Assembly (NCBI GenBank): GCA_902168205.1
Contig: CABHOK010000003.1
Location: 1,302,001 to 1,366,000, forward strand
Origin: an uncultured Chitinophaga sp.
Lineage (GTDB): Bacteria; Bacteroidota; Bacteroidia; Cytophagales; Cyclobacteriaceae
Direction: 5' to 3'
Length of the DNA stretch: 64,000 bases
This document shows positions 8,992 to 64,000 of the stretch, in pieces. The number at the start of each line of letters is the position of its first letter. Positions within the stretch are counted from its first letter, which is position 1. The notes beneath the pieces were generated by a model. It saw nothing but the letters and a program-made list of their open reading frames with translations, had not been told where the DNA came from and ran no database searches. Position numbers and translations under genes: made by a program.

Positions 8992-9292
8992 GCCTATTAT
9001 TCAAAGTTCGCCCGCTTTCATGGTCTTTACTCATTTTATTTTTTCTGCTCAGGCTTCTCAGCACCATGCACTCAAATTATAAATCAGGAACGAGCCGGAT
9101 ATTACACGGTAAAAGACGGTGCTGCCAGAATATTATTGTTTCAAAAATTTTTTGCAGGCAGGATAGAAGTGGGGAGCTGAGCTTTTCCGAGACTGTATTT
9201 TTAAGCCCGTCACGATGAATATCATACCTAAATTTTCAATTGAGAGCACAAGGGCTAAAGTGCTGATCAGTATTTTTTTCAATAATTTTACA

Positions 9293-9300
9293 TAAATTTG
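9293..9300 (+). promoter_or_regulatory. Candidate -7 element TAAATTTG, possible leaderless mRNA
   Basis: TAAATTTG matches TAnnTTTG. Its end is only 6 bp before the ATG at 9307, so a transcript initiated here would have almost no 5' leader. No TTG at -33 is evident. Confidence 0.35.
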
Positions 9301-9306
9301 TTTGTA

Positions 9307-9855: not shown

Positions 9856-9893
9856 TTTTTTAAGAAAATAGTACATACGAATTAAGGGAAGTT

Positions 9894-9978
9894 AATTTTT
9901 TGAACTGTACGAATTTTTTGAACTGAGTAGTGTAACCCCATCTTTATTCAATAAAGACGGTTACAATAATTTTTTGAA
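9894..9978. repeat. Three AATTTTTTGAA repeats plus imperfect hairpin upstream of adhesin operon
   Basis: AATTTTTTGAACTG occurs at 9894-9907 and again at 9912-9925 (18-bp period); a third copy of the core AATTTTTTGAA is at 9968-9978. Between copies two and three an imperfect hairpin (about 9932-9964, GTAACC...GGTTAC) could terminate the upstream gene. The repeats may be an operator for the 10021-22059 operon. Confidence 0.45.
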
Positions 9979-19300: not shown

Positions 19301-22059
19301 CACCGAGCACCGATGACGTAACGATCTCGTTTGACGTTACGCCTACAGTAGCGAATGCAGGTGCCGATCAAACCGTATGTGCTACAACTACAACCTTAGC
19401 TGGAAATGTGGTGACTATAGGAACCGGTACATGGACTATAATAAGTGGTACAGGTGGAAGCTTCGCAGATGACAATGATCCGGCAACAGTATTCACCGGT
19501 ACAGCAGGTCAGACTTATGTTCTTCAGTGGACCATCGCGAATGCGTGTGCTTCAACATCCGACCAGGTGACAATTAAACTGGATGCTGCTCCTACAGTAG
19601 CCAACGCAGGTCCGGATCAAGGACTTTGTGGCGTGTTTGTAACAACGCTTGCTGCGAATAGCCCGACCGTTGGAACCGGTGTATGGACCATAGTAAGTGG
19701 AACTGGTGGAGTTGTAATTAACCCGCTGAGCCCTACATCTCAATTTGTAGGTGTAGCCGGTAACTCCTATACATTACGCTGGGTAATTACCAACGGCTCG
19801 TGTACACCAAGTACAGATGATGTAGTGATTAACTTCTCTGCATCGCCAGTGGCTACCAGCCCGGTTACAATATGTGTTAACAATCCTGCACCGGTATTAA
19901 CAGCAACCGCTCCGGGAGCAACAAGCTTCAAGTGGTATCTGTTTACGGCACCGGCTACCAGAACACTTCTGGCAACAACAACGACAGGAACCTTCACACC
20001 AGGTGCTGAGTTAATTCGCACAGCTCCGGGAACCTTTACTTATGAGGTTACAGCGGTATATGCTTGCGGTGAAAGCCCTGCCACTCAAATTGTAGTGAAC
20101 GTGTCGAATACAGGTTCATGTGCTGGTGGTACAGGTAACTGCGCTACGGTTAAGATCACACCGAACCCGAAACCGGCTACATGTACGTTGTCGAATGGTT
20201 CAGTGACCTTTACGATTGATCCGCTTGTTCCGGCAATCAACAACGAAGGTGTGATTATTCGTATCGATGGTGTTTCAAGTACAAACCTGAACATCACACG
20301 TACAAACTATAATGATACAACCTTCCTGAATCTGCCAATGGGTACCTATACCTATACTATAGTATATGGTGATTCAAGCTGTATCAAGCCGGGAACATTT
20401 ACGATCGATCAATCCGGAACAGTAGGCACGCCAGTAGCTTCTAATATAGTACAGCCGGTTTGTGCCGGTACACCTACAGGGGCACTTACCTTGAGTGTTG
20501 CTGGTGAAGCTGGTAATTTACTCGAGTGGTCATTGGATGGAGTCAACTGGACATCATTTACGGCAGGCAGCCAGATAACCGGTATACCGGCAGGTGCTGC
20601 GCCTACCTTTGAAGTTGTAATCAGTGTGAGACGAAATGCTTCTGATCCGTGTAACGCGGCTGTTACCGTGGTGATGCAGGATGCTAACCCTGCTATCAAC
20701 GCAACATTTGATATTACGTCATCAACTTGTAACGGTAATGATGGTGCGATCACAAACATAACGGCATCAGGTGGTGTAGGTGGCCCTTATCAATATTCAT
20801 TGGATGGAACTACATTCCAGACGGATAATGAATTCACAGATATATCAGGCGGTTCCTATACACTTACTGTGAAAGATAATATAGGTTGTGTGCAGACCTT
20901 TACAGCTGCCGTAACATTCCCTGGCTTCATCGACTTCACAACGTCTGTTGTATCTGCAACTTGTACGAACAACGGATTGAGCGGTAAGCTTGCGATCAGA
21001 TTCAATGATCCTGGAACATACCAGGCAGGTATCAGTGCAGATCCTTTGGTTGAACCAACGAAGTATAGATCCTATACAACGTTCGATCCTTCCAACGATG
21101 TGCCGCTTACATTCGATTCATTAGGAAGAGGAACGTACTATGTATTTGCGAAAGGTGCTTCTGCACTGTGCGCTACAAGACAAGGTCCGTTCACGATCGA
21201 TGGAGTATATGCACTTACATTCGATATCGTTCCAATCTGTAATGACAATGAAGTATCGATAGCGTTGACAAATATTACAGGCGAACCTGGAACACCATTT
21301 GAGATTCAGGTATTCAAGAAGTTTACAAGTACTGCGATGGAAACTACTCCGGTTGCTTCCATACCGGTAACAAACAGTGTGCTCCTCGATTACGATGATC
21401 ATACGTTCCTGCAACTTCCGGATGAATACCAGATCCAGATAACACAGGTACAGTCTTCATCATTCTGCTTGTTGTCTTCTGAACTGGTTGACTATAAAGT
21501 AACACCTCATCTCTTCGCACAGGTAGGCGTTACCAGCGAGTCTTATCCGGATATACTTACGGGTAAAATGCAGGTGACCCGATTTACCGGAGGTCAGATA
21601 CCATACGAAGTCCGTATTGAGCTCGACTCAGCTTCAGTAGGTGGTCAGGCATTTCAGACGGATTGGGAAGAGGTATTGCTTAACAATAATCTACAGTACG
21701 AGAAAAACTATAGCAACATTCCGGCAGGTCGTTACAATGTTCAGGTACGTGATTCGATCGGATGCGTGATTGAAGTTGTAGGGCGTGTGCCGCTGGATAC
21801 AGACATCTATATACCAAACATCTTTACTCCGAACGAAGATGGTTCAAACGATGTGTTCTTCATTCGTAATTTGCCAGATGCAGACGCGAAGCTTGTCATT
21901 ACCGATCGTTGGGGTAAACAGGTATACTCAACAAACAGCTACCAGAATAACTGGGATGCAGAAGGAGTGTCCGATGGTATATATTTCTACCGCCTCAAGA
22001 TAGCCGATGGATCTGCTATAACCGGTTGGGTTGAAGTACTTCGTGGTGCGAAGCCTTAG
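10366..22059 (+). CDS. Giant Ig/PKD-like repeat adhesin, T9SS type B substrate (3897 aa)
   Basis: A cell-surface repeat protein of the SprB/gliding-adhesin type. Order: signal peptide (residues ~1-26, ending AIGQ); two SprB-like modules (to ~215; DVNCNGGNDG, YSVTATDANGC); one type B-like unit; 21 type A Ig/PKD-like units of ~88 residues (300-2151); 12 type B units of ~84 residues (2152-3158). A mixed Ig-like and SprB-like region follows (one SprB repeat near 3450-3515), and the last ~83 residues are the type B T9SS sorting domain (IYIPNIFTPNEDGSNDVFF ... WGKQVYS ... GIYFYRLK). Nearly every repeat has two Cys, suggesting an intradomain disulfide. Known of the family: export across the outer membrane by T9SS and dependence on a PorP/SprF protein. 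No PorP gene adjoins this gene; the nearest is at 33788. The ligand is unknown. Confidence 0.93.
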   Translation: MLKTLYKYFLALAFPLVLLSSHTAIGQCLTTNVSSQDVNCNGGNDGQIIVTVNTGVAPYRYDLYYDDSGLTLLGSVTTSSTSVTFTTGNGTLTEPGAETFGIPANTGVSQYRVIVQASGTGNIVCERKTSFVTIDEPTNPLAITVNSINPDCNPSVGIGEGDVNITASGGTSPYTFLWSDGATSEDRTDIDAGTYSVTATDANGCQTTISVTIPVVTQANAGADQTVCADNTTLAGNAAGTGEIGTWTVVSGTGTFTNANSPTTTVGNLSFGANVFRWTITDSGLTCSGTTSTVTITRSTPASVDAGAPQTICNGGSATLAGVIGGSATSATWSGGTGTFSPNNATLNATYTPSAAEITAGTVTLTLTTNDPLGPCPAVSDNVVITINATATVDAGPAQTICAGNTVTLAGTFGGSATGVSWSTSGDGTFNNITNPNAIYTPGVNDRTAGTVTLTLSTDDPAGPCLPATDNVVITISPAATVDAGPAQTVCGSSTVTLAGTIGGSATSATWSGGTGTFSPNNTTLTAVYTPSAAEITAGSVTLTLTTNDPAGACPAVSDNVVITLDPVATVDAGPAQTICAGSTVTLAGTIGGAAISATWSGGAGTFSPNANTLTAVYTPTAAEVAAGTVTLTLTTNDPAGSCPAATDNVTITISPAATVDAGPAQTVCGSSTVTLAGTIGGSATSATWSGGTGTFSPNNTTLNAVYTPSAAEITAGTVTLTLTTNDPAGACTAATDNVTITLDPVATVDAGAAQSICAGSTVTLAGTIGGGATTATWSGGSGTFSPNNSTLNAVYTPSAAEVAAGTVTLTLTTNDPAGLCPAATDNVTITISPAATVDAGPAQVICGGSTVTLAGTIGGSATSATWSGGTGTFAPNANTLNAVYTPSAAEVTAGTVTLTLTTNDPAGACTAATDNVTITINQAATVDAGTAQTICAGGTVTLAGTIGGSATSATWSGGAGTFAPNSSTLNAVYTPSAAEVAAGTVTLTLTTNDPAGSCPAVSDNVTITISPAATVDAGAAQTICGSGTVTLAGTIGGSATSATWSGGTGTFSPNATTLNAVYTPSAAEITAGTVTLTLTTNDPAGACTAATDNVTITIDQPATVDAGTAQTICAGSTVTLAGTIGGAATSATWSGGTGTFTPNATTLNAVYTPSAAEVAAGTVTLTLTTNDPTGLCPAATDNVTITISPAATVDAGPAQVICGGSTVTLAGTIGGSATSATWSGGTGTFSPNATTLNAVYTPSAAEITAGTVTLTLTTNDPAGACTAATDNVTITINQPATVDAGTAQTICAGNTVTLAGVIGGSATSATWSGGTGTFAPNANTLNAVYTPSAAEVTAGTVTLTLTTNDPAGSCPAVSDNVVITITPAATVNAGPDQSICAGNTVTLAGTIGGSATSGTWSGGTGTFAPNATTLNAVYTPSAAEVTAGTVTLTLTTAGPCAVVTDNVTITINPAATVNAGPDQSICAGNTVTLAGTVGGSATGGTWSGGTGTFAPNATTLNAVYTPSAAEVTAGTVTLTLTTTGPCATLTDNVTITINPAATVNAGPDQTICAGNTVTLAGSIGGSATGATWSGGTGTFAPNANTLNAVYTPSAAEVTAGTVTLTLTTTGPCAVVTDNVTITISPAATANAGPDQTICAGSTVTLAGSVSGAATGGTWSGGTGTFAPNANTLNAVYTPSAAEVLAGTVTLTLTTTGPCAAGTDNVVITINPVATVDAGTAQTICAGGTVTLAGTIGGSATSATWSGGTGTFNPNANTLGAVYTPSAAEIAAGTVTLTLTTNDPAGPCAAVSDNVTITISPAATVNAGPDQTICAGNTVTLAGSVGGSATGGTWSGGTGTFAPDASTLTAVYTPSAAEVTAGTVTLTLTTTGPCSTLIDNVVITISPAATVTAGPDSAICAGSSITLVGAVGGGATGGIWSGGTGTFTPNNTTLNAVYTPSAAEVTAGTVTLTLTTSGPCAPVSDNVTITISPAATVNAGADQNICAGSTVTLAGTIGGSASSATWSGGTGTFAPNNTTLNAIYTPSAAEIAAGTVTLTLTTNDPAGACTAATDNVAITIDDAATANAGTDQDICSGGTVTLAGSVSGSATSGTWSGGTGTFTPNASTLNAVYTPSAAEVAAGTVTLTLTTNDPAGLCDAGTDDVVITINQAPTVANAGPDQTVCGPATLAANNPAVGTGQWTIVSGTGGSFGDIADPATTFSGTGGTTYVLRWTITNGTCTASSDDVSITFDVNTPTTANAGPDQSICNTTTTLAANTAVVGTGAWSIVSGTGGSFGNAASPTSTFTGTAGTTYILRWSISTGGSCVPSTDDVTVAFEVTPTTANAGTDQSVCASTATLTGNTATIGTGTWTIISGTGGSFADDNDPATVFTGTAGQTYVLQWTIANSCGTSSDQVTIELEAAPTTANAGPDQTVCGPATLAANSPTVGIGQWTIVSGTGGNLADDADPATTFTGTAGTTYVLRWTVTNGSCAPSTDDVSITFDINTPTTANAGPDQSVCGTSTPLAANTAIIGTGQWTIVSGAGGSFGDDAVPTTTFTGTAGTTYVLRWTITGSCATTFDDVEVVFEQAPTPANAGPDQTVCGPATLAANTPAIGTGQWSIVSGTGGSFADDTNPTTTFSGTGGTTYVIRWTISNGSCTPSTDDVSITFDINTPTTANAGPDQSVCNTSTALAANNPVVGTGAWSIVSGAGGNFGDASSPTSTFTGTAGTTYVLRWTISTTGTCTPSTDDVTITFDIAPTVADAGPDQSVCATTVTLAANTAASGTGTWTIVSGTGGSFADDNDPATVFTGTAGQTYVLQWTIANTCASTSDQVTIELEAAPTPANAGPDQTVCGPATLAANAPVVGTGQWTVVSGTGGVFADDSSPTTTFSGTGGATYVIRWTITNGSCTATSDDVSITFDINTPTTANAGPDQAICNTSTTLAANTAVVGTGAWSVVSGTGGVFGDASSPTSTFTGTAGTAYVLRWTISTTGTCTPSTDDVTISFDVTPTVANAGADQTVCATTTTLAGNVVTIGTGTWTIISGTGGSFADDNDPATVFTGTAGQTYVLQWTIANACASTSDQVTIKLDAAPTVANAGPDQGLCGVFVTTLAANSPTVGTGVWTIVSGTGGVVINPLSPTSQFVGVAGNSYTLRWVITNGSCTPSTDDVVINFSASPVATSPVTICVNNPAPVLTATAPGATSFKWYLFTAPATRTLLATTTTGTFTPGAELIRTAPGTFTYEVTAVYACGESPATQIVVNVSNTGSCAGGTGNCATVKITPNPKPATCTLSNGSVTFTIDPLVPAINNEGVIIRIDGVSSTNLNITRTNYNDTTFLNLPMGTYTYTIVYGDSSCIKPGTFTIDQSGTVGTPVASNIVQPVCAGTPTGALTLSVAGEAGNLLEWSLDGVNWTSFTAGSQITGIPAGAAPTFEVVISVRRNASDPCNAAVTVVMQDANPAINATFDITSSTCNGNDGAITNITASGGVGGPYQYSLDGTTFQTDNEFTDISGGSYTLTVKDNIGCVQTFTAAVTFPGFIDFTTSVVSATCTNNGLSGKLAIRFNDPGTYQAGISADPLVEPTKYRSYTTFDPSNDVPLTFDSLGRGTYYVFAKGASALCATRQGPFTIDGVYALTFDIVPICNDNEVSIALTNITGEPGTPFEIQVFKKFTSTAMETTPVASIPVTNSVLLDYDDHTFLQLPDEYQIQITQVQSSSFCLLSSELVDYKVTPHLFAQVGVTSESYPDILTGKMQVTRFTGGQIPYEVRIELDSASVGGQAFQTDWEEVLLNNNLQYEKNYSNIPAGRYNVQVRDSIGCVIEVVGRVPLDTDIYIPNIFTPNEDGSNDVFFIRNLPDADAKLVITDRWGKQVYSTNSYQNNWDAEGVSDGIYFYRLKIADGSAITGWVEVLRGAKP
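11263..16818 (+). repeat. Type A repeat array: 21 units of ~265 bp
   Basis: Tandem coding repeats, each starting near (T/A)xVDAGxxQxIC and containing TVTLAGTIGGSAT, WSGGTGTF, YTPSAAE and TVTLTLTTN. Units 3-12 (11797-14466) are exactly 267 bp each and alternate strictly in two versions, giving a 534-bp super-repeat in five copies. Units 13-16 and 18-19 are shorter because TTNDPAGxC is replaced by TTxGPC. Confidence 0.9.
16819..19839 (+). repeat. Type B repeat array: 12 units of ~252 bp
   Basis: Tandem coding repeats with ANAGPDQxVC, (G)TGxWTIVSGTGGSF and TYVLRWTI. They fall into three sub-versions: CGPATLAAN, CNTSTxLAAN, and one with FADDNDPATVFTGTAGQ. These mostly recur in the order 1-2-3, giving a ~756-bp super-repeat, with one copy of version 3 missing after unit 5 and an atypical last unit. 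Confidence 0.88.
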
Positions 22060-25426: not shown

Positions 25427-28400
25427 ATGAATTTTCTTTACCCGGTAAGAGGTATACTGTTATTATTGTTTTTTACGCTGCTAATCGCTACCTGCTCAAC
25501 CCCTGTAAATGCGCAGGGATGTTTGGGAGTTGGTGGCATGGGTATAACCGGTGGTGCGGTAAGTACCAGTGCCGGTATACTATGCGCGAACGTAGACGCG
25601 TTGGGAGGACCGGGCACAGGTGCCGAGCTTCAGATCACCGCGGGCAACGTGATTGATGGTGATGTAGTTTCATTTACAGTTGACTGGGATGACGGAACCG
25701 CACCGCAGGTAGTGCCTGCTACGAAGACAGGTCCAAACAACTGGCAAGTTGTAAATCTCAAACACTACTTTCCGACAACCGGCAATGATGTTCAGTGCGA
25801 ATATATACCTCGCGTTGCTCTTCTGGTTAATGGAGTTCAGTGTACTCCTAACTTTGGTGCATCGCCAAAGTTCACGCGATGGAATGTGGATGATGAGAAC
25901 TCCGGTGAACTCAGACTCGAAGAAACCACTACGAATGTAAATACATACCTCGTTTGTCGCGGAACTGAAACGACTGTCACATTCACAGACAGAAGTATAT
26001 TAAACTGCGTACCACCTGACTATACATTGCCCAATCCTATTAACCAGGCACAACGCTGGAGACGTTTTACATACGGCACAGTAAACACGGTTACATCAGC
26101 AACAGGCGTTGAAGTAAACGGGACAGTGCAGGTATATCCTTTTCAGGGAGCAGTTGTTACAGATAATCCATCGATAGCTCCACTTACGCCAACCATAACA
26201 TTGCCTATAACAATTCCGGCCGATGCGCAGGTGGGACAAGAGTTCGAGATTACTATGGAGTATTGGAATACCTGTAATCCGTTTCCCGGCACTCCGGTAA
26301 CAGAGACTGCAAGAATCCGCGTGGTTGATCAACCGCCGGCTCCCACAGCTAACAATAATTTAGTTTGTAACGGAGTGAGTCCGTTACCCGATTTTTCAAT
26401 TACGATACCTGGTGCATTTCCGGGTTCCGTTGTTACATGGTTTCGGGATAACGCTGGTGTACCGGGAACTGTAATTGCTGGTTACACAACGGCATCCCTA
26501 CCCGCATCGGCTATTGGCGTAAACAATGCTGTAGCCGGTGTATATAGAGTGTGGGCGAGCTACTATGCAGTTAATAATGCTGATGGAGTTTCCTGCGAAA
26601 GTCCACGGATACCTGTTACGCTGACGATACGGGAAGATCTACCAATCGTTCCTATACCTGCCGGGTATATTAACCAGATCTGTAACGATGCTACCATGAC
26701 GCTGACATTGCCAGCGGCTGCTACCGAAACAATAGGCGGAGCTACACAATATGTATGGACCGTAGGCGGTGGTGGCGGTGTAACGTTCACATCAACGGCA
26801 ACCAGTGCTACGTTTAATTTCTCAGGTATAAATTTTGGTGGCGCTGCTTCGGTAACGAGAATTATACGCGTTAACAGAAGATACACTGCTAATCCAACCT
26901 GTACATCACCGAATAGAAATTTAAGTGTACAGATTTTTGCACCAAGTGTAGGAGGGACGCTTTCAACAACCCCGGATGTCTGTGAGACAACAGGAGTAGG
27001 TACTATAAACTTAACCGGAGAGTTGGGCACCGTTCAGCGCTGGGAAGTCTCTTTTAATAACGGACCCTTTTTGCCCAATGCTGCTTTAGGCACGGGTAAT
27101 TCTATAACACCCGGTATATTAACTGCGGGTAACTATAGATTCCGCGCGGTAGTTGCCAACGGTGTGTGTGCAGAAGCTGTAAGTTCGATTGAGACAGTAG
27201 ATGTTTTTCCGAATCCTACAGCGGCAAGTGTTGGTGCAGATCAATCATTCTGTCAGACCTTGTTGACTTCAACAGCATTAGGTGGAAGTGACCCTACGCC
27301 TGGCACAGGTGCGTGGACAGTAACGTCACGACCTGCAGGCTCTTCCGCATCAGCGGCAAATTTTTCAAATGCAACGAGTGGTAATTCAATCTTTACCGGA
27401 GATGTATACGGTATATATACCTTGCGTTGGACGGTAACGAGTGGATCCTGCGTAAGCTTTGCTGAATTGAATGTGGAGTTTGGTACAGACCCCGGTGTAC
27501 AGAATGCCGGTACTGACAATGCCTTCTGCGGAACGAATGGTTCCCTCAATGCTACAACTCCTGCTATAGGAACTGGCAGGTGGACACAAATTGCAGGCCC
27601 TATAGCGGGTAATACTTCTTTTGATAATGACGAGCAGGCTGCTACAAATATCGCGTTGCTGGATACGTCACCGGCTGCGTACGGCAGTTACACTTATCGC
27701 TGGACGGTGGTTAGCGGAAACTGTACACCGCGCACCGATGATGTTATCATTACTTTTAACGAACCGGGTTCTGCATCTGTACCGGCTGATTTTGTATCCT
27801 GCGTTGATCAGACAACATTAGCTCCCATTACCTTAACCGGTGCTGCCGTAGCCGGTGGTGCTGCGCAAGGTCGCTGGGAAGTTGTGAGTGGTTCGGGTAC
27901 ATTTACCAGCAACAACGGTAACCCGGGAGCTGCATTGCCAGCCGCCAATACGGATGATGCGTATAGACCTTCCGTTGCAGATTTTACAGCAGGCTCTGTA
28001 CAACTTCGTTTTGTAGCAATCGATCCGGATGGTGCCGGACCTTGCGGAAATGTAAACAGTCCAACCAATCTTACCATTACATTCGATCGTAAACCAGCTG
28101 ATGCTGATGCCGGTGCTGACTTCGCTATATGCGAAGGTGATGTTGCCAACCTGAATGCTGTGGCTGTTAACAATGGCGGTATAGGTATATGGTCTCCTGC
28201 GACTGGTGTTGCAGATGTAAATGATGAGACAACAACGGTAACAGGTCTCACGACTACAACAACATTTACGTGGACTGTATATAGTGCCATGGGTAACCTC
28301 GCGACACCACCGAACGGTTCTTGTGCTGCTACCACCAATGATGTAATCGTTACGGTAAATCCGCTGCCGGAAGCTAACGATCCAGCACCGAACGATCTTT

Positions 28401-31400
28401 GTGAAACCATAGCCGGTACACTTACCACTACGAATGTTACGCTCTCGGTATACGATGCTGCTATAATCGGTGCTGCTGCTCCTGCCGACAGAACGGTGAA
28501 GTGGTATGCCAACGCATTCGACCAGGTAAATGATATTAACCCGATAACAACGGTTGATATTCACGATGGTGATAAACTTTTTGTACGGGTAATTGATATA
28601 ACAACAGCTCCGCTGAATTGTCACACGCTGCAGGAAGTAAACTTCACGGTTAATCCGAAGCCTGTAGTGATGGCGACAAGTTTTTATTACTGCGAAGAAG
28701 CCCCGGCCGGTACAGGTCGTGTAGATGACATAGATCTGACACTCGCTACGGTAGGAGATGACATTACTGCGTTACCCGCAGCTGATCGTACCATTACCTG
28801 GTACACCTCACAGCTTGATGCCGAAGGTGCCGTTAACCTGCTGGCCAATCCTAATGATATAGACATCACTGCTAACACTATATATTTCGCGCGTGTTGAA
28901 AATATACATACCGGGTGCTTCAATGTTGTACAGGTAAACCTGATTGTGAAGCCATTGCCGGCTGATCCGGTGATTACCGGTAAAGGAGATCCTTGTAAAA
29001 ATGGCTCAGAATTATACCGTGTAGGACAGATCGCAGGAGCAACCTATACATGGACTTACCCGCCTACGTTCCAATACCTCGGTGGAGGTGGTGCCAACGA
29101 CTTTTATATACTGTTGAGTTTCCCGAATGCTGTATCCGATGACCTGTCGGTAAAGGTAACGGTTAATGGATGTGAGAGTAACGTTGTTACCAAAACAATC
29201 CAGGTATCGGATGGTCCGCAGGGATATTCGATTGTGCCGCCTAACGTAGATATATGCGAGAATGGTATATATCAATTCTCCGTTTCTCCGAACAATACTG
29301 GTAGCTCAACCTATAACTGGCAGGTATTGAAACAAAGCGATGGTTTACCCGGAGGCGGTATTGTAGCCGATGGACAAACTACTGGTGTGGTACAGATACA
29401 ATTCCTGAGTGAAGATGTATTTGTAAAAGTATCGGAGAGTAACGCATCCGGATGTACCGGACCTCCAACACAAATTCCGGTTGCTGTTAACAAGCGACCT
29501 ACTATGGATAATGCAACTACAGCCATTTGTAGTGGTGATGTTACCGGAATTATACTTTCAGAGAACGCAACGAGTCCGGTTGTAGCAACAACATTTGATG
29601 TGCAGGTGCCTGCCGTGTTACCGGGGATAACTCCCGTAAGCGGACCAACACAAGGTGTACTGGCACCAACCGGCATCACGAACGACAGCTATAAAAATCA
29701 AACCATTGCACCGGTTCTCTCTTTGTTATACCGCGTTAAGCCGATCAGCGCAGTAGGTTGCGTGGGTGAAGAGAAGAGTATAACACTGGATATAAAAGCA
29801 GAGCCCGTGATGGATATAACCCTGGGTAAAGCTGTATGTAGTGACAACCCGATTGAAGTTACATTGAAGTCGGCTATCGGATTTTTACCAGCAGATAAAT
29901 TTGTTATCGAATCTATAGTCTACGATGCTGCAGTACTGACACCGCTCACACCGTTGCCGGCAACCGGGGCAACACTTTATAATCCGGATATAATTTATAA
30001 TCATCGCTGGGAAAATATTACCGGCAGTGATGCGAACGTAACCTATAACATCCGTCCTTATAATTCTACAACGGGTTGTTATGGAAATCCTGCTGTGCCG
30101 GTGGTAATAACCATTCAGCGTAAGCCGTTGGTAACTCCGGTTTCTTTACCCCCGGTTTGTAGTGGCGATGTGTTGAATATACCGCTCACATCTGTCAATG
30201 TTAATAATGCAACGTTTACCTGGACGGTGTCGCAGGTAAATGGAAATATAACCGGGGCTACCGGTTCGATAACGAATGTCATTAACGATAAACTTGTAAA
30301 CAACAGTCTTGCAGTAGGCACTGTAGTATACGAAGTACGGGCAACCAATCCTTCTTCAGCACCGCTGTGTAGCGGCCCGGCCGAGTATATTACCATTACC
30401 GTAAGACCTTCTCCAGCCATTACAACTCCGCTGAATGAGACAGCCTGCTCGGATGGATATGGTGGCAATACGGTTGTTAAAGATCTTACTTCATATCATA
30501 CACAAGTCAGTACAGAGCCCGGTGTAACCTATACCTGGTTTACGAATGAAAATGATTTTGCCGGATCACAGATTCCGCCTGCACAAATTACGGCATATAC
30601 TCTTACGGATGCGTTGCCGGTATATGTACGCGTACTGAATCCTGCGGCAACCAGCGGATGTTATAAAGATGCAACCGTAACATTTGATGTGCGTCCTACA
30701 CCGCAGCTTACGGTTGATCCGATTGAGACAACTGATCCGCGATTCAATATTACCTGTAACGGTTTGGCGAATGGTCAGATCGCTGTATCGGCACAGTATG
30801 GTACCAATCATACGTTTAGTAAAGACGGTACTACGTTTGTGCCTGCCGTGTTGTTCTCAAACCTCGGTGCCGGTAACTATATCATCTATACCAAAAATGC
30901 TGAAGGTTGCCAGGACTCTGCACCGGTTAGCATTATTCAGCCCGATCCGATTGTGGCGGGTACCCCGTCCGTTGTAGACGTGAGCTGCTTTAACGATCCT
31001 ACTCCGGATGGGGAGATCCATATAGCGGCTACAGGTGGAACAGCGGCAGGTGGAGGCGATCCGTTGATCTTCTCGTTGCTGCAGGACTCCAATGTACCGT
31101 ATGATGCCGTTAATGAACGCTTCATCGGACTACGGGCTACAACCTATACTGTTCGCATCGAAGACAAGAATGGTTGTACACTATATGTTCCGAACATTGT
31201 TGTGAAGCAACCGGGAGATATAGCCTTCACAATTGATATCACTTCCGATTACAACGGTTACGATGTGAGCTGTGCAGGACAAAGTGATGGCGAGATCAGT
31301 GTAGATATAGCAAACATCACCGGAGGCAACCCGGGTTATACATACGTACTGGATCAGGACCCGCTCAACCTGAGTGGCACTACAGACGGAAGCTTCCAGG

Positions 31401-33781
31401 GATTATCAGCAAATATACTATATACGGTTACGGTTACCGATACCAAGGGATGTCAGAAAACGTCATTGCCTGAATTACTGATCGACCCGATACCGTTGTT
31501 CGCGGGTGTGGTTGGTTTTGATAAAGATATATGCGAAGGTGCAGATCCAACCGCGTTTCAGGAATTGTCTCAACCGTTCGGAGGTATCGGCAACTATGTA
31601 TACCGATGGGAAGAGTCAGCCGACAATATAGCGTATGCTCCGGCAGCGGGTATAAATAATAATCCTACGTACGATCCGCCTCCACTAACAGACCTGATGT
31701 ACTACCGCAGGGTAGTGGCTTCGGGTACATGTGCGGAAGATATTACAGATGTTGTGAAGGTAGTGGTGCATACATTGCCACAGGCAACACTCACAGCTCC
31801 GAGCGAAATTTGTGAGAATGGTTTCTTTACGCTCGATTTCAAATTCACCAATGGACAAGCTCCGTACTTCTTCGATTACTCCGATGGTACTACTACCTAT
31901 AGCCTGGTGGGTGGAGAAGACAGGCCTGTGCCGATACTAAACTATACTGCAACCAAAACATTTACGCTTACACATCTGAAAGATTTTTATGGATGTGAAC
32001 CGGTGTCTTATCCGCAACCTGTAACGGTAAAGATGATCAATATGAACACAAGCTTTACGGTTGCACCGGTAACACCGCAGTGTAGCGGAGGCGAATATAC
32101 CTTTACCTGGACGGTTAATCCGGATGTAGAATATGTATGGAACTGGAACGATGGTTCACCGGAAGAAGTAATTCCGGCAATACCGGGGCCGGCAAGTCCG
32201 GTGGTAATGCAGGTGAAGCACATCTTTACCAGCGCCAACGTAGGTGGCAATACCGTTATACCGGTAACACTGACTGCGCGTAGCACGACCGTTGCAGCAT
32301 GTATCAAACAGTCGGTAGCACAGAACATTACCATCTATCCGAATATATTCATTAACGTGGCGCCTGATCGCACACAAATATGCAGTGGTGAGAAAGTGAA
32401 ATTTGTGAACTCGACTGTGGGCGGTTCGGTGCATCGCTGGTTCTATCGCATACAAGGTGGTGATCCGAGTGAAGTTCGCGAGGAGCGAACCTTTGCAACG
32501 GCAGCAACGCAGGAATATACCTTGACGAACACAACCAACCAGACGGTAGTATATGAAATCGTATACCAGGTAACGAATGGTTCATGTTCCGATGAGATCG
32601 TGATGCCGGTAACGGTATACCGTTCAATGATAGCCGACTTCAATGCTACTTCTATTACAGCGTATACTGGTGGCGAGGCCTTTGCAGATTTCCTCGATAC
32701 ATCGCTGCCTGTGAACGATCCGGATTTCCGTTATGAATGGGATTTCGGTACAGCTTCAACGCCAACTACATTTGATGGGTATACACCACCGCAGATTCGC
32801 TATACAGCGATCGGTGAAAAATATATTCGTCTCGTTGTTACCAATAAATTGGCAGAAGCGGCAGGTCTCTCATGCTTTAAAGACAAGTCTTTGCGCATCG
32901 AGGTATTGTTGCCTCCATTGGGTGCATCATTCAAATATACTCCACAGGCTACCTGTTTCCCGGCTGCTATAACGATCACTGAAAACAATGCTACAGGTGA
33001 CCTGTACGAATGGACACTGAAAGATAAAGCAGGCAACACGCTGGTGATAACCAATGAGACACTGCCGGTATTTAAAGTCGCTGCGCCCGGAGAATATACT
33101 ATATTCCTGAAGACCACGAATTCCATTACAGGGCAAACCGCTGAATCAGATAATCGTAATACACCGGTACAAATTATGGATAACCCGTATGCTGCTTTTG
33201 AAGTGGTGCCGGATTCCGTTGTGTTTGTGCCGGACGAGACCGGTATACAGATGCGTAACAATACGCTTCGTGCCAATAACTATTACTGGGATTTTAACGA
33301 TGGCGGTACATCTGCCGAGTTTCAGCCTGAACATCATTATCAACTGGCGGGTAATTATCTGATCGTGCTCTCCGCTTCTCATAATTACGGTCCGAAGGAT
33401 TTTGATGGCGATGGTATAATTGATGGTGACCTGATTTGTTACGACACGGCTACACAAGTAATCATCGCGAAGAAGGGTGGTCGCATTCGTATACCAAATG
33501 CTTTTACACCGAATATTACCGGTCCGAATGGCGGATATAGCGATGGACTCTTTAACGATGTGTTCCGTCCGATCATGGATGGTGTTGAAGAATTCCAGAT
33601 GCAGATCTTCGATCGTTGGGGTAACCTGATCTTCGAGAGTAATGATAAAAACCAGGGATGGGATGGCTATGATAAAAACGGACGATTGTTGCCGGCAGGA
33701 GTATATGTATATAAAATTGTCATGCGTTTGTCCGATGATCAGCGCACAACACAACTAGGGGACGTAACACTTATCCGATAA
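25427..33781 (+). CDS. Giant secreted PKD/SprB-like protein, T9SS type B substrate (2784 aa)
   Basis: A second very large exported protein. The signal peptide (residues ~1-30) ends TPVNAQ. The body is a series of Ig/PKD-like beta domains, each with one or two Cys, less regular than in the 10366 adhesin; a few units (e.g. VGADQSFC, NAGTDNAFC) are clearly related to it. Three SprB-like modules lie at about residues 1770-2025 (CNGLANGQI, VSCFNDPTPDGEI, VSCAGQSDGEI). PKD domains near the end show FRYEWDFGTA and YYWDFNDGG, and an Asp-rich loop DFDGDGIIDGD looks like a calcium site. The last ~98 residues are the type B sorting domain (IRIPNAFTPN ... IFDRWGNLIFE ... AGVYVYKI). The PorP/SprF gene starts 6 bp downstream, as in sprB-sprF-type pairs. 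The ligand is unknown. Confidence 0.92.
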   Translation: MNFLYPVRGILLLLFFTLLIATCSTPVNAQGCLGVGGMGITGGAVSTSAGILCANVDALGGPGTGAELQITAGNVIDGDVVSFTVDWDDGTAPQVVPATKTGPNNWQVVNLKHYFPTTGNDVQCEYIPRVALLVNGVQCTPNFGASPKFTRWNVDDENSGELRLEETTTNVNTYLVCRGTETTVTFTDRSILNCVPPDYTLPNPINQAQRWRRFTYGTVNTVTSATGVEVNGTVQVYPFQGAVVTDNPSIAPLTPTITLPITIPADAQVGQEFEITMEYWNTCNPFPGTPVTETARIRVVDQPPAPTANNNLVCNGVSPLPDFSITIPGAFPGSVVTWFRDNAGVPGTVIAGYTTASLPASAIGVNNAVAGVYRVWASYYAVNNADGVSCESPRIPVTLTIREDLPIVPIPAGYINQICNDATMTLTLPAAATETIGGATQYVWTVGGGGGVTFTSTATSATFNFSGINFGGAASVTRIIRVNRRYTANPTCTSPNRNLSVQIFAPSVGGTLSTTPDVCETTGVGTINLTGELGTVQRWEVSFNNGPFLPNAALGTGNSITPGILTAGNYRFRAVVANGVCAEAVSSIETVDVFPNPTAASVGADQSFCQTLLTSTALGGSDPTPGTGAWTVTSRPAGSSASAANFSNATSGNSIFTGDVYGIYTLRWTVTSGSCVSFAELNVEFGTDPGVQNAGTDNAFCGTNGSLNATTPAIGTGRWTQIAGPIAGNTSFDNDEQAATNIALLDTSPAAYGSYTYRWTVVSGNCTPRTDDVIITFNEPGSASVPADFVSCVDQTTLAPITLTGAAVAGGAAQGRWEVVSGSGTFTSNNGNPGAALPAANTDDAYRPSVADFTAGSVQLRFVAIDPDGAGPCGNVNSPTNLTITFDRKPADADAGADFAICEGDVANLNAVAVNNGGIGIWSPATGVADVNDETTTVTGLTTTTTFTWTVYSAMGNLATPPNGSCAATTNDVIVTVNPLPEANDPAPNDLCETIAGTLTTTNVTLSVYDAAIIGAAAPADRTVKWYANAFDQVNDINPITTVDIHDGDKLFVRVIDITTAPLNCHTLQEVNFTVNPKPVVMATSFYYCEEAPAGTGRVDDIDLTLATVGDDITALPAADRTITWYTSQLDAEGAVNLLANPNDIDITANTIYFARVENIHTGCFNVVQVNLIVKPLPADPVITGKGDPCKNGSELYRVGQIAGATYTWTYPPTFQYLGGGGANDFYILLSFPNAVSDDLSVKVTVNGCESNVVTKTIQVSDGPQGYSIVPPNVDICENGIYQFSVSPNNTGSSTYNWQVLKQSDGLPGGGIVADGQTTGVVQIQFLSEDVFVKVSESNASGCTGPPTQIPVAVNKRPTMDNATTAICSGDVTGIILSENATSPVVATTFDVQVPAVLPGITPVSGPTQGVLAPTGITNDSYKNQTIAPVLSLLYRVKPISAVGCVGEEKSITLDIKAEPVMDITLGKAVCSDNPIEVTLKSAIGFLPADKFVIESIVYDAAVLTPLTPLPATGATLYNPDIIYNHRWENITGSDANVTYNIRPYNSTTGCYGNPAVPVVITIQRKPLVTPVSLPPVCSGDVLNIPLTSVNVNNATFTWTVSQVNGNITGATGSITNVINDKLVNNSLAVGTVVYEVRATNPSSAPLCSGPAEYITITVRPSPAITTPLNETACSDGYGGNTVVKDLTSYHTQVSTEPGVTYTWFTNENDFAGSQIPPAQITAYTLTDALPVYVRVLNPAATSGCYKDATVTFDVRPTPQLTVDPIETTDPRFNITCNGLANGQIAVSAQYGTNHTFSKDGTTFVPAVLFSNLGAGNYIIYTKNAEGCQDSAPVSIIQPDPIVAGTPSVVDVSCFNDPTPDGEIHIAATGGTAAGGGDPLIFSLLQDSNVPYDAVNERFIGLRATTYTVRIEDKNGCTLYVPNIVVKQPGDIAFTIDITSDYNGYDVSCAGQSDGEISVDIANITGGNPGYTYVLDQDPLNLSGTTDGSFQGLSANILYTVTVTDTKGCQKTSLPELLIDPIPLFAGVVGFDKDICEGADPTAFQELSQPFGGIGNYVYRWEESADNIAYAPAAGINNNPTYDPPPLTDLMYYRRVVASGTCAEDITDVVKVVVHTLPQATLTAPSEICENGFFTLDFKFTNGQAPYFFDYSDGTTTYSLVGGEDRPVPILNYTATKTFTLTHLKDFYGCEPVSYPQPVTVKMINMNTSFTVAPVTPQCSGGEYTFTWTVNPDVEYVWNWNDGSPEEVIPAIPGPASPVVMQVKHIFTSANVGGNTVIPVTLTARSTTVAACIKQSVAQNITIYPNIFINVAPDRTQICSGEKVKFVNSTVGGSVHRWFYRIQGGDPSEVREERTFATAATQEYTLTNTTNQTVVYEIVYQVTNGSCSDEIVMPVTVYRSMIADFNATSITAYTGGEAFADFLDTSLPVNDPDFRYEWDFGTASTPTTFDGYTPPQIRYTAIGEKYIRLVVTNKLAEAAGLSCFKDKSLRIEVLLPPLGASFKYTPQATCFPAAITITENNATGDLYEWTLKDKAGNTLVITNETLPVFKVAAPGEYTIFLKTTNSITGQTAESDNRNTPVQIMDNPYAAFEVVPDSVVFVPDETGIQMRNNTLRANNYYWDFNDGGTSAEFQPEHHYQLAGNYLIVLSASHNYGPKDFDGDGIIDGDLICYDTATQVIIAKKGGRIRIPNAFTPNITGPNGGYSDGLFNDVFRPIMDGVEEFQMQIFDRWGNLIFESNDKNQGWDGYDKNGRLLPAGVYVYKIVMRLSDDQRTTQLGDVTLIR

Positions 33782-59672: not shown

Positions 59673-59702
59673 AACGCAACGTTCAGGGCATCCCATAAAG
59701 TA

Positions 59703-59734
59703 ATAGCGACCAGAACCGGTCGCTATTTTTTTTG
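59703..59734 (+). terminator. Intrinsic terminator of the ABC fusion gene
   Basis: Perfect 9-bp stem ATAGCGACC (59703-59711) / GGTCGCTAT (59718-59726) with a 6-nt loop, followed by eight T. Confidence 0.92.
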
Positions 59735-59887: not shown

Positions 59888-61357
59888 ATGCCATCCACTA
59901 TTCCATACGATCCTTCCCTGGTGTTGGGTAATATTGTTCACCAGGAGCGACTTGATAATCTCACCGCCATCAGCGCATTGCAAGCTCCGGTTGATGCTGC
60001 CGAAGACACGTTGAACTCTTTCATATCCATGAAGCGGAGCATTGATATGACGATCCAGGAGTTGATCAATATGCAGATTGATACAACCGAGTTAATTAAA
60101 GAAAGTGCCGAGGTTGGTAAGAAGATACAGGAATCGGCTATAGTCTATGCCAAGGCCAAGCTTGATGCCGAAACCAAGATGCAACCACTACGCGCCAAAA
60201 TTATAGGTGTACATGATGATATTGAAAGTCCCATAGACTATAACAAGACCGACATCAAGAAGATGCAGCTTTCGGCCGACTCACTGAAAATGAATGTGCA
60301 GTATTTTGCCTTTGACGAGAATCAACAAAGCTCCGATACGCACGCTGCCACTATCAAATCGTTTGTGAGTGAAGAGGTAAGCTATATGGGCGAATCATAT
60401 CAGTCGCAGGCCAGCAGCGCTGTGCAGGCACAAATGAATAGCCAGCACTCGCGGCATAGTATATCCGGTACACTGGTAATCAGCGTTACATGTACACATC
60501 GTGATGCATCACTTCTGGCTCCTTTTATACTTGATGTTGATAAAGCTGTGCGCGTTTGGAATCGCGTCTATAAAAGTGATATGATCAAAACGGATAGCAT
60601 TACGAATATGGCGCAGATTGCAGCGCAGTCGGGAACAGAAAAAGAAAAATCACTCACCATTCTTTCCGGTGCTACGTACGGTTCATGTTTTATAGGCATG
60701 GTACATATACTCGATACAACGGACACGCGTTCGAGCGAAGCGATGTATTCTGTAGCGGCTTCGTTGCAAACTCAATTTAAGGTTGGTAACTGGCTGGCAA
60801 AGGCGTCCGGAGGAATGGGTGTCGATAGCAGTTTCTCCAATGACGCCAAGAACTTATTGAGTTCGCAGAATGTGACATCGCATTGTACACTGGTAGCCAT
60901 GGGATCTATACCTTCCATTAAGTCCAATACCGTGCAGATGGGAGTGAAGGGATTCGCGGATGATGACGGGGCAAAGTCCATGGCGGCTGTTCAGAAACTA
61001 CAGAATGCAACCGCGACTGAAAATGATTCGGTGGATTCTTCCGCAGAAGCTGCCCGCACCGGCGGACAACTGGTAGCAATGAAGAGCTCGCAGATATCGG
61101 CTACACTAAGTGCGTTGTCGGATATAGATAAGCAATCCAACAAGGTGATCGACACGAATTCGATGATGGATGCGCTGGAAGACTATATCAATAAATGTCT
61201 TCAGGGAAATGTAGGCGTACCGATCAATTACTATCTCAAGCCTATAACCAAATCGCAGATCGCACAGATGTGGATGACTAAATACTATCCCGGACAGTAT
61301 CTGGCTATATCGGGTGATGATAGTGCTCCAGCAAATAACAATGCACCTAAGTCTTGA
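59888..61357 (+). CDS. Unrecognised cassette protein A (489 aa)
   Basis: No family recognised. No signal peptide, membrane segment or sorting domain; probably cytoplasmic or released by a non-Sec route. The N-terminal motif IPYDPSLVLGNIV (residues 5-17) is shared with the paralog at 62159. Residues ~20-190 are predicted by composition to be helical (coiled-coil-like, Ala/Gln-rich). A mixed alpha/beta core follows: GTLVISVTCTHR (194-205), PFILDVDKA (212-220), SLTILSGATYGSCFIGMVHIL (255-275), SGGMGVDSS, KNLLSSQNVTSH (321-332). The C-terminus (YYLKPITKSQIAQMWMTKYY) is also conserved in the paralog. Long helical plus compact core architecture is seen in many effectors and toxins, but that is only an analogy. 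It lies 215 bp after the ABC terminator and presumably has its own promoter. Confidence 0.8.
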   Translation: MPSTIPYDPSLVLGNIVHQERLDNLTAISALQAPVDAAEDTLNSFISMKRSIDMTIQELINMQIDTTELIKESAEVGKKIQESAIVYAKAKLDAETKMQPLRAKIIGVHDDIESPIDYNKTDIKKMQLSADSLKMNVQYFAFDENQQSSDTHAATIKSFVSEEVSYMGESYQSQASSAVQAQMNSQHSRHSISGTLVISVTCTHRDASLLAPFILDVDKAVRVWNRVYKSDMIKTDSITNMAQIAAQSGTEKEKSLTILSGATYGSCFIGMVHILDTTDTRSSEAMYSVAASLQTQFKVGNWLAKASGGMGVDSSFSNDAKNLLSSQNVTSHCTLVAMGSIPSIKSNTVQMGVKGFADDDGAKSMAAVQKLQNATATENDSVDSSAEAARTGGQLVAMKSSQISATLSALSDIDKQSNKVIDTNSMMDALEDYINKCLQGNVGVPINYYLKPITKSQIAQMWMTKYYPGQYLAISGDDSAPANNNAPKS

Positions 61358-61489
61358 TATTCATTAGCTAAAATATAGGTCATTCATTCTATAGAATAGA
61401 ACGGAGTTCCTTGAAAATCCTTCAAGAGAGTAAAGCGTGGATGCCGAAAAACGATATGAGTAAGCTGAAAAACTAAAATCTTAAATACA
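61358..61489. other. Gap between cassette protein A and the papain-like gene
   Basis: A 132-bp AT-rich spacer. It has a palindrome ATTCTATAGAAT (61386-61397), a short hairpin (CTTGAA 61410-61415 with TTCAAG 61421-61426) and a possible 11-codon reading frame at 61441-61476. No convincing promoter or terminator was found. Confidence 0.4.
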
Positions 61490-62077
61490 ATGGAAGCGTC
61501 TAAATTAAATCAAAACAAATGGGGTGTTTGTGGTTTTGTCGCTGCGATTCAGGCGGCCTCTGATACCGGTGTTGTTAATTTGCTAAAGGACACAGACTAT
61601 AATACATTGTTCCCGGTGATCGATAAATTCTGCGGCAGCAATGCCGATATTGAGAAAGAGCTTTTGGATTTCTCTGCGGTGTTTGGTGTGCAGTATGCCT
61701 ATAAAAATCTGGCAGAGGTAGTTGGCAAAATGAAAACTGATACAACGTTGCTGGGAGATAATATGGGAATTGCAATGACTGCCAACGGAGTAAGCAGGCT
61801 TTGTAAAAGTCTGGGGCTGAAAAATTCAGACTTCCATGGCACGACCTCCACAACCAACTCGCTGGCGAGTAACCTGAAAAGCAAAAAGACGATATATGGC
61901 TTGGGACGAGCTACTGGTAAACCAGGCGGTTATCGAAATGGTCTGCTGCACTGGGTATATATTGATTCCAATGGAAATTTGTTGACCTGGGGGCAATCTG
62001 TTTCCCCCGATAAAACTGTCGATTTCTTGACCTCAAACGGGTACGATAAAGTTACTCACTATATACCGCTCAATTAA
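61490..62077 (+). CDS. Candidate papain-like cysteine hydrolase (195 aa)
   Basis: Not a recognised named family. The N-terminal NQNKWGVCGFVAAIQAAS places a Gln (Gln8) six residues ahead of Cys14, the same spacing as the oxyanion Gln and nucleophile Cys of papain-fold enzymes. Further on, GLLHWVYIDSNGNLLTWGQS gives His154 at the start of a beta hairpin, with Asp159 or Gln169 as possible third catalytic residue. Two other Cys (48 and 105) are present. No signal peptide and no sorting domain, so cytoplasmic as made. A protease, amidase or transglutaminase activity would fit the fold; none is demonstrated. It sits between two paralogous genes and is followed by a strong terminator. Confidence 0.75.
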   Translation: MEASKLNQNKWGVCGFVAAIQAASDTGVVNLLKDTDYNTLFPVIDKFCGSNADIEKELLDFSAVFGVQYAYKNLAEVVGKMKTDTTLLGDNMGIAMTANGVSRLCKSLGLKNSDFHGTTSTTNSLASNLKSKKTIYGLGRATGKPGGYRNGLLHWVYIDSNGNLLTWGQSVSPDKTVDFLTSNGYDKVTHYIPLN

Positions 62078-62096
62078 AGAATACCTATATCATATA

Positions 62097-62140
62097 CCCG
62101 CCTGCTAAGGCATTGGCAGGCGGGATGTTTTACTTTTCTT
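62097..62140 (+). terminator. Intrinsic terminator after the papain-like gene
   Basis: Nine-bp stem CCCGCCTGC (62097-62105) / GCAGGCGGG (62116-62124), followed by ATGTTTTACTTTTC. It ends ~35 bp before the start of the next gene. Confidence 0.85.
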
Positions 62141-62158
62141 TTACGAAAGCAAAAAAAC

Positions 62159-63616
62159 GTGGCTTCATCCATACCATACGATCATCCGTCCCTTGTTCTC
62201 GGAAATATAGTGGATACTTCTATTCTGAACCGGATGAAGAAGATTGGTAGCCTTCAGGCGAAGACCGATGCTGCCATGGATAAACTGAACTCGCACATCG
62301 CCATGAAACGGAGTCTTGGTATGATGCTGAATGAGTTGGTGAACCTGAATATTGATGTAGCGGATGTAAATACCAGGATCGCGGAAGTAGATACCGCTAT
62401 TACGCAGGCTGCTGTCGACTATATGACAGTACGCCTTGCCAATGAAACGGGCATTCAGCAACTACGCGAAGAAATTACTGAGCAAGAGGTAAGTGATACA
62501 ATGGAGAGTCCGATTGACTATACCTTGAGCAGTATAAAGCGATTGCCGCTATCTTCTGAATCACTGAAATTGGATGCACAGTATTTTTCGTATGGGAGCA
62601 ACGAAGAAGACGCTTCCGCCAGTATAGAGAACTACATTCGCGAATCAACACGAAATATAGGAGCAAAGTCTGATGAGGTAGCAAAAGCTGCAACGGAACA
62701 GATAAGGCAGCAACGCAAAAATCACAGCCTTGCCGGTACACTGATCATCACAGCAAGTTGTACACATCGGAACGTAGCCATCATCGAACCGTTTATACTC
62801 GATGTCGATAAAGCTATACAAACCTGGAACGCAATATATAGGGATGAGCCGATCAACGTTGATGAAGAAGAAGGTGTCCAGACAATAGCAAAAGGTTCCG
62901 AGGCAAGTGGAGATAAATCGCTCAGTATACTTTCCGGAGTTGCGTATGGGTCAAGCTTTGTAGGCATGGTACATATACTGAACAAGACACTCACCGATTC
63001 GGCATCGATGGTCTCGCTGGCATCTGATATACAGGGCAGGCTAAAGATCGGGAGCTGGCTGGAAGATGCGTCCGGAGGTTTTGGTGTTGATTCATCCATC
63101 GCCAATGAAGTAAAAAATTTACTCAGTACACAGAATATAACGTCTCACATCAGTGTGATTGTTATGGGCGTGCTGCCTTCGATTGCCTCAAAACAATTGA
63201 GCCTGGGGTTGAGTAAACTGGTTGATTCCGATTCTGAAAAAATGACTAATTATTTATCAGCTATATCTGCTGCAACCAGCGCAGAAGCAGAAACACTGGA
63301 GACAGGAGCTACCGGTGCCAGGACAGGAGCGCGGTTGTTGAACATGCAAAGCGCAACTATAAAAAGCGTAATGCAGGGGCTGGATAAAATTGACCAGGGC
63401 GCAAACCAAATGCTTGATATTAATTCGATGATGGCGGCCTTCGAAAATTACCTGGATCAGATCAAAGCGAAAGACCGTGACGTTGGTGTGCCCGTGAGTT
63501 TCTACTTAAAGAATATCAATCGAAAGCAGTTAGCGAAGTTGTGGCTGGATAAATATTATCCCGACAAGGAAAAGCCTGCTGCGAACAACGTGCCTCCGGT
63601 AACTGATGTAAAATAA
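62159..63616 (+). CDS. Unrecognised cassette protein B, paralog of A (485 aa), GTG start
   Basis: Clear paralog of the protein at 59888, colinear over its whole length: IPYDHPSLVLGNIV (residues 5-18), ESPIDYTLSSIKRLPLSS, GTLIITASCTHR, PFILDVDKAI (211-220), SLSILSGVAYGSSFVGMVHIL, SGGFGVDSS, VKNLLSTQNITSH and the C-terminal KQLAKLWLDKYYP. The best blocks are over half identical by eye; the helical N-terminal half and loops are more divergent, so the duplication is old. GTG at 62159 is the only start that keeps the conserved N-terminus. No signal peptide or membrane segment. Function unknown. Confidence 0.8.
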   Translation: MASSIPYDHPSLVLGNIVDTSILNRMKKIGSLQAKTDAAMDKLNSHIAMKRSLGMMLNELVNLNIDVADVNTRIAEVDTAITQAAVDYMTVRLANETGIQQLREEITEQEVSDTMESPIDYTLSSIKRLPLSSESLKLDAQYFSYGSNEEDASASIENYIRESTRNIGAKSDEVAKAATEQIRQQRKNHSLAGTLIITASCTHRNVAIIEPFILDVDKAIQTWNAIYRDEPINVDEEEGVQTIAKGSEASGDKSLSILSGVAYGSSFVGMVHILNKTLTDSASMVSLASDIQGRLKIGSWLEDASGGFGVDSSIANEVKNLLSTQNITSHISVIVMGVLPSIASKQLSLGLSKLVDSDSEKMTNYLSAISAATSAEAETLETGATGARTGARLLNMQSATIKSVMQGLDKIDQGANQMLDINSMMAAFENYLDQIKAKDRDVGVPVSFYLKNINRKQLAKLWLDKYYPDKEKPAANNVPPVTDVK

Positions 63617-63641
63617 ATTTCTTTTAAACTATATACCTGTT

Positions 63642-63953
63642 ATGAATCATCGTGATAAAACTGAAGAAGAGATATCCAGAATTGTAGGTCACGTTTATGA
63701 TGGTTCTATAGCGTTGCTGAGTGCGTGTATTTTGATTATTACGTTGTTTGAGGTTGCAGATAAACGCCAGGCATATTTTATAGATGAAGTGCTTTGTGTT
63801 TCATCTCTTTTCTTTACAATCTCCATGATGCTGTCATACTTTTATTTACGGGGAGTTTGTGGTATTCGGTATCGCATTATTGCGAACGTCATTTTTGTCA
63901 TCGGCCTGGTTAGCATATTGGTAGCCGGTATATTTCTGATCATGGAATATTAG
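63642..63953 (+). CDS. Small three-TM membrane protein at the end of the cassette
   Basis: 103 residues with a charged N-terminus (MNHRDKTEEEISRIVGHV) and three predicted membrane segments (IALLSACILIITLFEV; VLCVSSLFFTISMMLSYFYL; IIANVIFVIGLVSILVAGIFLIM). It starts 26 bp after paralog B on the same strand, so is probably co-transcribed. I do not recognise it. A membrane partner, anchor or protective protein for the cassette is possible; a simple unrelated neighbour is not excluded. Confidence 0.75.
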   Translation: MNHRDKTEEEISRIVGHVYDGSIALLSACILIITLFEVADKRQAYFIDEVLCVSSLFFTISMMLSYFYLRGVCGIRYRIIANVIFVIGLVSILVAGIFLIMEY

Positions 63954-64000
63954 CAGTGTATGTTTTTATTTTCAGTGTTACTCTGTAATAATCTGGTATG

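Follow-up and report, generated by a model that had tools for sequence, protein, structure and literature searches.

Our analyses suggest that a 64,000-nucleotide stretch of the genome of an uncultured Chitinophaga sp. (contig CABHOK010000003.1, positions 1,302,001 to 1,366,000; hereafter the window) ends in an inserted island whose two paralogous proteins, A and B, probably have a fold of the MACPF/CDC type. The island holds nine genes: A, C, B, M, the lysozyme gene D, two regulators that make up a two-component system, and two small genes (Table 1). We give about even chances to the reading that it is a heteromeric perforin-like system devoid of signal peptides, with lysozyme-aided release and swappable cargo. 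A first-pass annotation, made from the letters of the window, had proposed an effector- or toxin-type complex, and this is now the best reading. The "four-gene cassette" that it delimited (A, C, B and M) was too short, as D starts at 63998 and the inserted unit ends at ~68346, past the window.

The four open reading frames of that cassette were all found at the coordinates and with the lengths given in the first-pass annotation. A search of the genome with A matches A and B only (B at 44% identity, E 1.3e-119), which bears out their paralogy, and the common motifs named earlier are seen in the A/B alignment. None of A, C, B and M reaches the Pfam or NCBIfam cut-off and nothing convincing was found in PADLOC or PHROGs, so that A and B do lie outside named families by sequence; a sequence-profile search of the PDB with both gave nothing useful. 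A hydropathy scan detected zero hydrophobic segments in A, B and C, in agreement with the proposed lack of signal peptides. The annotation had also called C papain-like. The Gln, Cys and His on which this was based are present by eye, but searches of Pfam, NCBIfam and PADLOC give no meaningful match for C and a sequence search of the PDB gives nothing below E 0.16, and "papain-like" therefore describes a motif resemblance. The small membrane protein announced downstream of B is there as well, with three hydrophobic segments, at a distance of 25 bases instead of 26.

The fold was approached through models of A, of its full length and of its core. Compared with the PDB, the core model has MACPF/CDC-type proteins at ranks 1-21, including five titled only "toxin" that we take to be of this type. 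The top four matches in a viral structure library are MAC/perforin proteins, and MACPF/CDC entries appear from rank 10 onward with the full-length model of A. The first-pass annotation had evoked two-component helical proteins; A is not simply helical, and the models show long strands in the arrangement seen in MACPF/CDC proteins. Several results weigh against this fold. No single PDB match of the core model is significant alone, two STAS chains outscore the MACPF-type entries in Z with a second aligner, and the middle of the model is poorly modelled. The Pfam MACPF profile PF01823 has no match in A, in B or in their own genome, nor does it occur among the matches listed (25 of 34 families) for 41 core sequences. 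None of these 41 sequences contains the MACPF consensus Y-x6-[FY]-G-T-H-[FY], as worded in an excerpt of PMC7593815, and all 41 contain the partly similar motif G-[ST]-x-F-x-G-x-x-H. Profile-profile comparison of A2/A3 with 16 MACPF proteins in four groupings yielded probabilities of 0.1-1.4%, versus 0.1-0.2% for reversed decoys, and counts as no support for MACPF. What supports the fold is the agreement of model matches that are individually weak; A and B are, on these models, probably of MACPF/CDC type and, given such a fold, would probably form pores. Two other likenesses were tried and rejected: a relationship to STAS/SpoIIAA, as the two highest-Z chains align 84-91 residues only and the MACPF-type entries span most of the core, and a likeness to seryl-tRNA synthetase, the matches to which include a coiled coil at residues 19-103.

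Unrelated bacteria share this neighbourhood of genes, a point that the first-pass annotation had proposed to check. We compared 14 bacterial loci (our own, L003, L004, L005 with L088, L006, L007, L008, L009, L010, L011, L012, L078, L079 and L093), L005 and L088 being counted as one because they are contig ends of a single genome, across which gene order is inferred. The constant partner of A in these loci is a peptidoglycan hydrolase, not C: such an enzyme adjoins A in 13 of the 14, with a GH25 domain in 11 and a GH19 domain in 2 (L010 by Pfam, E 2e-6; L093 by 71% identity). In L006 and L088 the GH25 domain is joined to a different N-terminal part, and in L012 (11497-12207) a D-like protein ends after a transmembrane-like segment, without a GH25 domain. 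B adjoins A in 8/14 loci, one of them inferred across the contig break; two loci carry A plus a second A-type copy, both genomes having a B-clade gene elsewhere, and four have A without an adjoining B (L003, L008, L012, L079). The annotation had named the co-occurrence of A, B and the Cys protein as possible support; A and B recur together in these 8 loci, and C was found in no other cassette. The position after A is a variable slot, occupied in 8/14 loci; we count nine types of protein there, and two of these are each seen in two loci (one in L003/L008, another in L006/L088). The other slot proteins are mutually unrelated, with no blastp match below E 0.3 among those compared (L088 by tblastn). 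The first slot protein of L078 is a DUF7689 protein (E 2.4e-13). Those at L003:13932-14723 and L008:9460-10236 are 57-59% identical, both with GMNGC and a later His; their motifs are reminiscent of Cys-His deamidases, and those of the L006/L088 type of nitrilases, Pfam giving no match for either. C itself has no homologue in other cassettes, plasmid records, viral contigs or six congeners, and its role as a conserved component or conserved processing enzyme was rejected. Of the two roles first proposed for it, processing enzyme and cargo, the latter is the likelier, because the slot elsewhere holds unrelated genes or none. Regulators stand beside the cassette in our locus, L004, L009, L012 and L078 (by Pfam) and in L005 and L006 (by tblastn). 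In the Hydrogenophaga locus, a LuxI-type autoinducer synthase directly follows D (L008:11881-12528; Pfam E 5.4e-38), hinting at control by cell density.

D belongs to an island with sharp borders. DNA homology with the congener G001 ends at 59654 and restarts at 68347, points that are only 48 bases apart in G001, where the receptor flanking the site is 97% identical. Both flanking genes, an ABC transporter and a receptor named TonB-type by eye, are present in 7/7 genomes of the genus, the receptor of G004 and G005 being only 47% identical in this comparison, and the gap between them measures 11.1 kb here versus 2.5-3.5 kb in six congeners. Congeners G001-G006 have no match to A or to C, and we infer that the island was gained here, not lost six times. 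Its ends have no common stretch of at least 10 bases, direct or inverted, between the 260 bases at either end, and none of its nine genes is evidently an integrase or a transposase. The GH25 domain of D is recognized by Pfam (PF01183, E 1.8e-34) and by PHROG 291 endolysin (E 1.2e-39), and Pfam detects the same domain in five other D proteins (E 1e-30 to 1e-37). Basic residues precede its hydrophobic segment.

The A family is rare, yet it spans phyla. Counting our own or the centre genome, A occurs in 1/59 relatives, 2/395 genomes of the phylum, 2/390 of the family, 2/349 of the family of the Hydrogenophaga locus and 2/66 of the genus of the Aquimarina longa locus, the last two both previously found. 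A scan of genome contigs with A, reaching close relatives only, retrieved nine loci at 51-71% identity in Aquimarina, another Flavobacteriaceae, Pseudobacter, Longitalea, Hydrogenophaga, another Comamonadaceae and an alphaproteobacterium. A Variovorax plasmid, the sole plasmid record matched by A, carries it at 64% identity. A protein of the Neochlamydia plasmid pS13 (L038:7572-9497) matches B weakly by tblastn (E 0.02, 22% identity) and is a clear homologue by profile (E 1.3e-29, calculated for this locus only); it has an extra N-terminal part and is flanked by a gene of 4.4 kb and one of 1.0 kb with no known function. In a tree of 42 core sequences, with a midpoint root for drawing only, B forms one side of a branch with 100/100 support, a clade separate from A. 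Copies from Variovorax, Hydrogenophaga and the alphaproteobacterium are placed within the Bacteroidota copies of A with moderate support, which fits transfer of A between phyla. Bacterial A and viral copies require two changes each on this tree, and jointly 3 changes versus a mean of 19.4 after shuffling.

Two scans of IMG/VR for viral copies detected 20 and 42 loci, in overlapping sets. Since IMG/VR consists of predicted viral sequence, our statement that viruses carry A rests on the contigs with packaging genes. Six of ten neighbouring viral proteins tested against PHROGs match head-and-packaging families, the other four being uninformative; they include terminase in L018 and L024, portal in L018 and L071 (weakly in L024, E 0.007) and the major head protein in L030. 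Viral contigs carry A singly, and the loci of the first scan contain no match to D. The upstream neighbour of viral A lies on the same strand in 29/34 loci and within 50 bases in 22/34, a spacing scored by a script whose start calls are in some cases too early. In six loci this neighbour belongs to one portal-type family, several contigs being near-identical, and in five to a lipoprotein-like family (L041 at 9140-9928, L048, L051, L055 and L073; some contigs again near-identical), the L041 member having a weak PHROGs match to an unknown family. In L071 (9998-11160), as in L069 and L070, the A homologue directly follows the portal gene and is split into two overlapping frames. Three queries of 50,697 phage records found no homologue.

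The system recalls several known ones without coinciding with any. Among the best core-model matches are two bacterial MACPF proteins, 2qp2 (presumably from Photorhabdus; rank 3) and 3kk7 of Bacteroides (rank 10), from which A and B differ by the lack of a Pfam MACPF match and of the consensus motif. Stonustoxin (4wvm), a fish venom protein made of paired paralogous subunits with further domains, reaches the highest Z of the MACPF-type entries (6.6 over 153 residues; root-mean-square deviation, rmsd, 5.3) and gave no sequence match in the PDB search. CDCL structures appear at ranks 29 and 36, and also with the second aligner. Like A and B, the CDCL two-component toxins of Bacteroidota are adjacent paralogs of similar size, often single or paired, and some of their genes lie on mobile elements (excerpts of PMC11169675 and PMC7527733). 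However, the CDCL set in the former excerpt took in only pairs or triplets that carry SpII signal peptides, which A and B lack; a hydrophobic start is absent in both, and the starts of other A-family proteins look alike. The CDCL motif F/Y-F/Y-Xn-YGR (excerpt of PMC7527733) is also absent, YGR occurring in 0/41 core sequences. Unlike CDCL of Bacteroidota, A is also found in proteobacteria and viral contigs, and the CDCL descriptions in these excerpts mention neither a lysozyme partner nor a variable slot. For release, the closest parallel is type 10 secretion of the Yersinia entomophaga Tc toxin, a cytoplasmically folded toxin freed by controlled lysis, its genes being coupled to those for lysis (excerpt of PMC10847048). 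The GH25 or GH19 gene beside A matches this coupling, and by analogy A and B might be exported in the same manner. Here, by contrast, the hydrolase is a membrane-anchored GH25 protein with its own N-terminal domain, M is a candidate holin, and no spanin was identified, no dedicated search having been made. The C-terminal domain of D resembles phage GH25 endolysins (PHROG 291), whereas its unnamed N-terminal region, its transmembrane segment and its location in a bacterial island do not. In open-access text, none of the matches listed deals with the A/B gene pair or with perforin-like proteins in phages, for a family that lacks a searchable name.

These elements allow us to propose a mechanism. 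A and B, cytosolic and free of signal peptides, would most likely co-assemble into a membrane pore, and D would be a muramidase whose anchor probably makes it face the periplasm; M may have a holin-like role. Once the two-component system next to the cassette perceives its signal (LuxI lies beside D instead in one relative), D would open the wall, and A, B and the slot protein would escape through lysis or a local breach of the wall, in a manner close to lytic type 10 secretion. That D aids release or envelope passage is an evenly balanced proposition. The slot product, C here, would be an exchangeable cargo or effector travelling with the pore, a role whose likelihood we place a little short of even. 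The targets may be rival bacteria, protists or the producing cell; Neochlamydia being an amoeba symbiont, its plasmid homologue makes protists a possible target. More speculative, and in our view doubtful, is that all this amounts to a previously undescribed cross-phylum delivery system, combining an A/B pore, a slot for swappable enzymes, exit by an anchored lysozyme and control by signal or density, exchanged as an island and also present singly in phage late operons, phage lysis then freeing perforin-like proteins into the environment. If the island is indeed a perforin-like system, a phage-linked perforin-like branch named in none of the family libraries searched would be tied to lysozyme exit and exchangeable cargo, and the way in which signal-less pore proteins exit Gram-negative cells would become testable; it would be surprising in its own right to find a perforin-like protein in late operons of phages.

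Other explanations deserve consideration. The perforin likeness might be a modelling artefact, A and B having a new fold or being an unrelated structural pair, for example of envelope or filament proteins. The weak single scores, the higher Z of the STAS chains, the negative sequence tests and the poorly modelled middle would all fit, but chance should yield mixed folds, whereas ranks 1-21 all go to a single superfamily, with matches that cover most of the core, and this superfamily comes up again in a second library and for the full-length model; we consider an artefact improbable. Alternatively, A and B might be phage-derived components of the virion or accessories of lysis, not toxins. In that case the viral copies would be structural genes of the late phase, and the cassette in bacteria would be a lysis module that was domesticated and includes paralogs. 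The position of viral A directly after portal, terminase or lipoprotein genes in several contigs and the endolysin-like domain kept by the bacterial cassette point in this direction. Yet that position varies among viral contigs, as for an added gene and not a fixed head gene, the absence of homologues from the phage records with three queries is unexpected for a core virion protein, and the fold matches are pore-formers; we judge this origin of their function unlikely.

A and B might also act inside the producer, as a gasdermin-like self-destruct or anti-phage module in which the pore and a periplasmic muramidase kill the infected cell and the slot gene is the trigger. The missing signal peptides of A, B and C, the patchy distribution of an island with a variable member, and the anchor of D, which aims the lysozyme at the cell's own wall, agree with such suicide. 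Against it stand the lack of any PADLOC match, the viral contigs that carry A itself with D unmatched in the loci tested, slot proteins too unrelated to one another for a fixed trigger, and the LuxI gene beside D in L008, which suits a communal product; this module, too, seems to us to have little probability.

Table 1. Features of the inserted island and its cassette. Coordinates past 64000 are positions in L014 plus 62000, in the same numbering as the window.
Feature	Coordinates	Strand	Basis
Inserted island, ~8.7 kb	59655 to ~68346		DNA homology break versus congener G001
Terminator-like hairpin preceding A	59702-59727		Consensus match
A, perforin-like protein, first paralog, 489 aa	59888..61357	+	Open reading frame present; own-genome paralogy search; core fold model
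C, gene in variable slot, candidate cargo, 195 aa	61490..62077	+	Gln8-x5-Cys14 and His154; no homologue in other cassettes
Terminator-like hairpin between C and B	62097..62124	+	12 pairs, 8 G-C; consensus match
B, second paralog, 485 aa, GTG start	62159..63616	+	Own-genome paralogy search; tree
M, 103 aa, three hydrophobic segments, possibly holin-like	63642..63953	+	Hydropathy scan
D, 455 aa, one transmembrane segment at 193-211, GH25 lysozyme domain at 257-437	63998-65365 (L014:1998-3365)	+	Pfam/PHROG and hydropathy
Response regulator, LuxR-type	65371-66054	-	Pfam
Histidine kinase	66051-66875	-	Pfam
218 aa protein, no Pfam match	66839-67495	-	
175 aa protein, no Pfam match	67508-68035	-	

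Because terminator-like hairpins precede A and part C from B, the expression of A-C may be separate from that of B-M-D; the region has 8 such hairpins, consensus matches only, versus 3.4 +/- 2.0 in shuffled sequences. M is recognized in three loci, our own, L078 (E 5e-14) and L009 (E 6e-4), and its possible role as a holin is suggested by its three hydrophobic segments, no family match being found in Pfam, NCBIfam or PHROGs. Elsewhere in the window, two giant open reading frames at 10366-22059 and 25427-33781 encode 3897 and 2784 aa.
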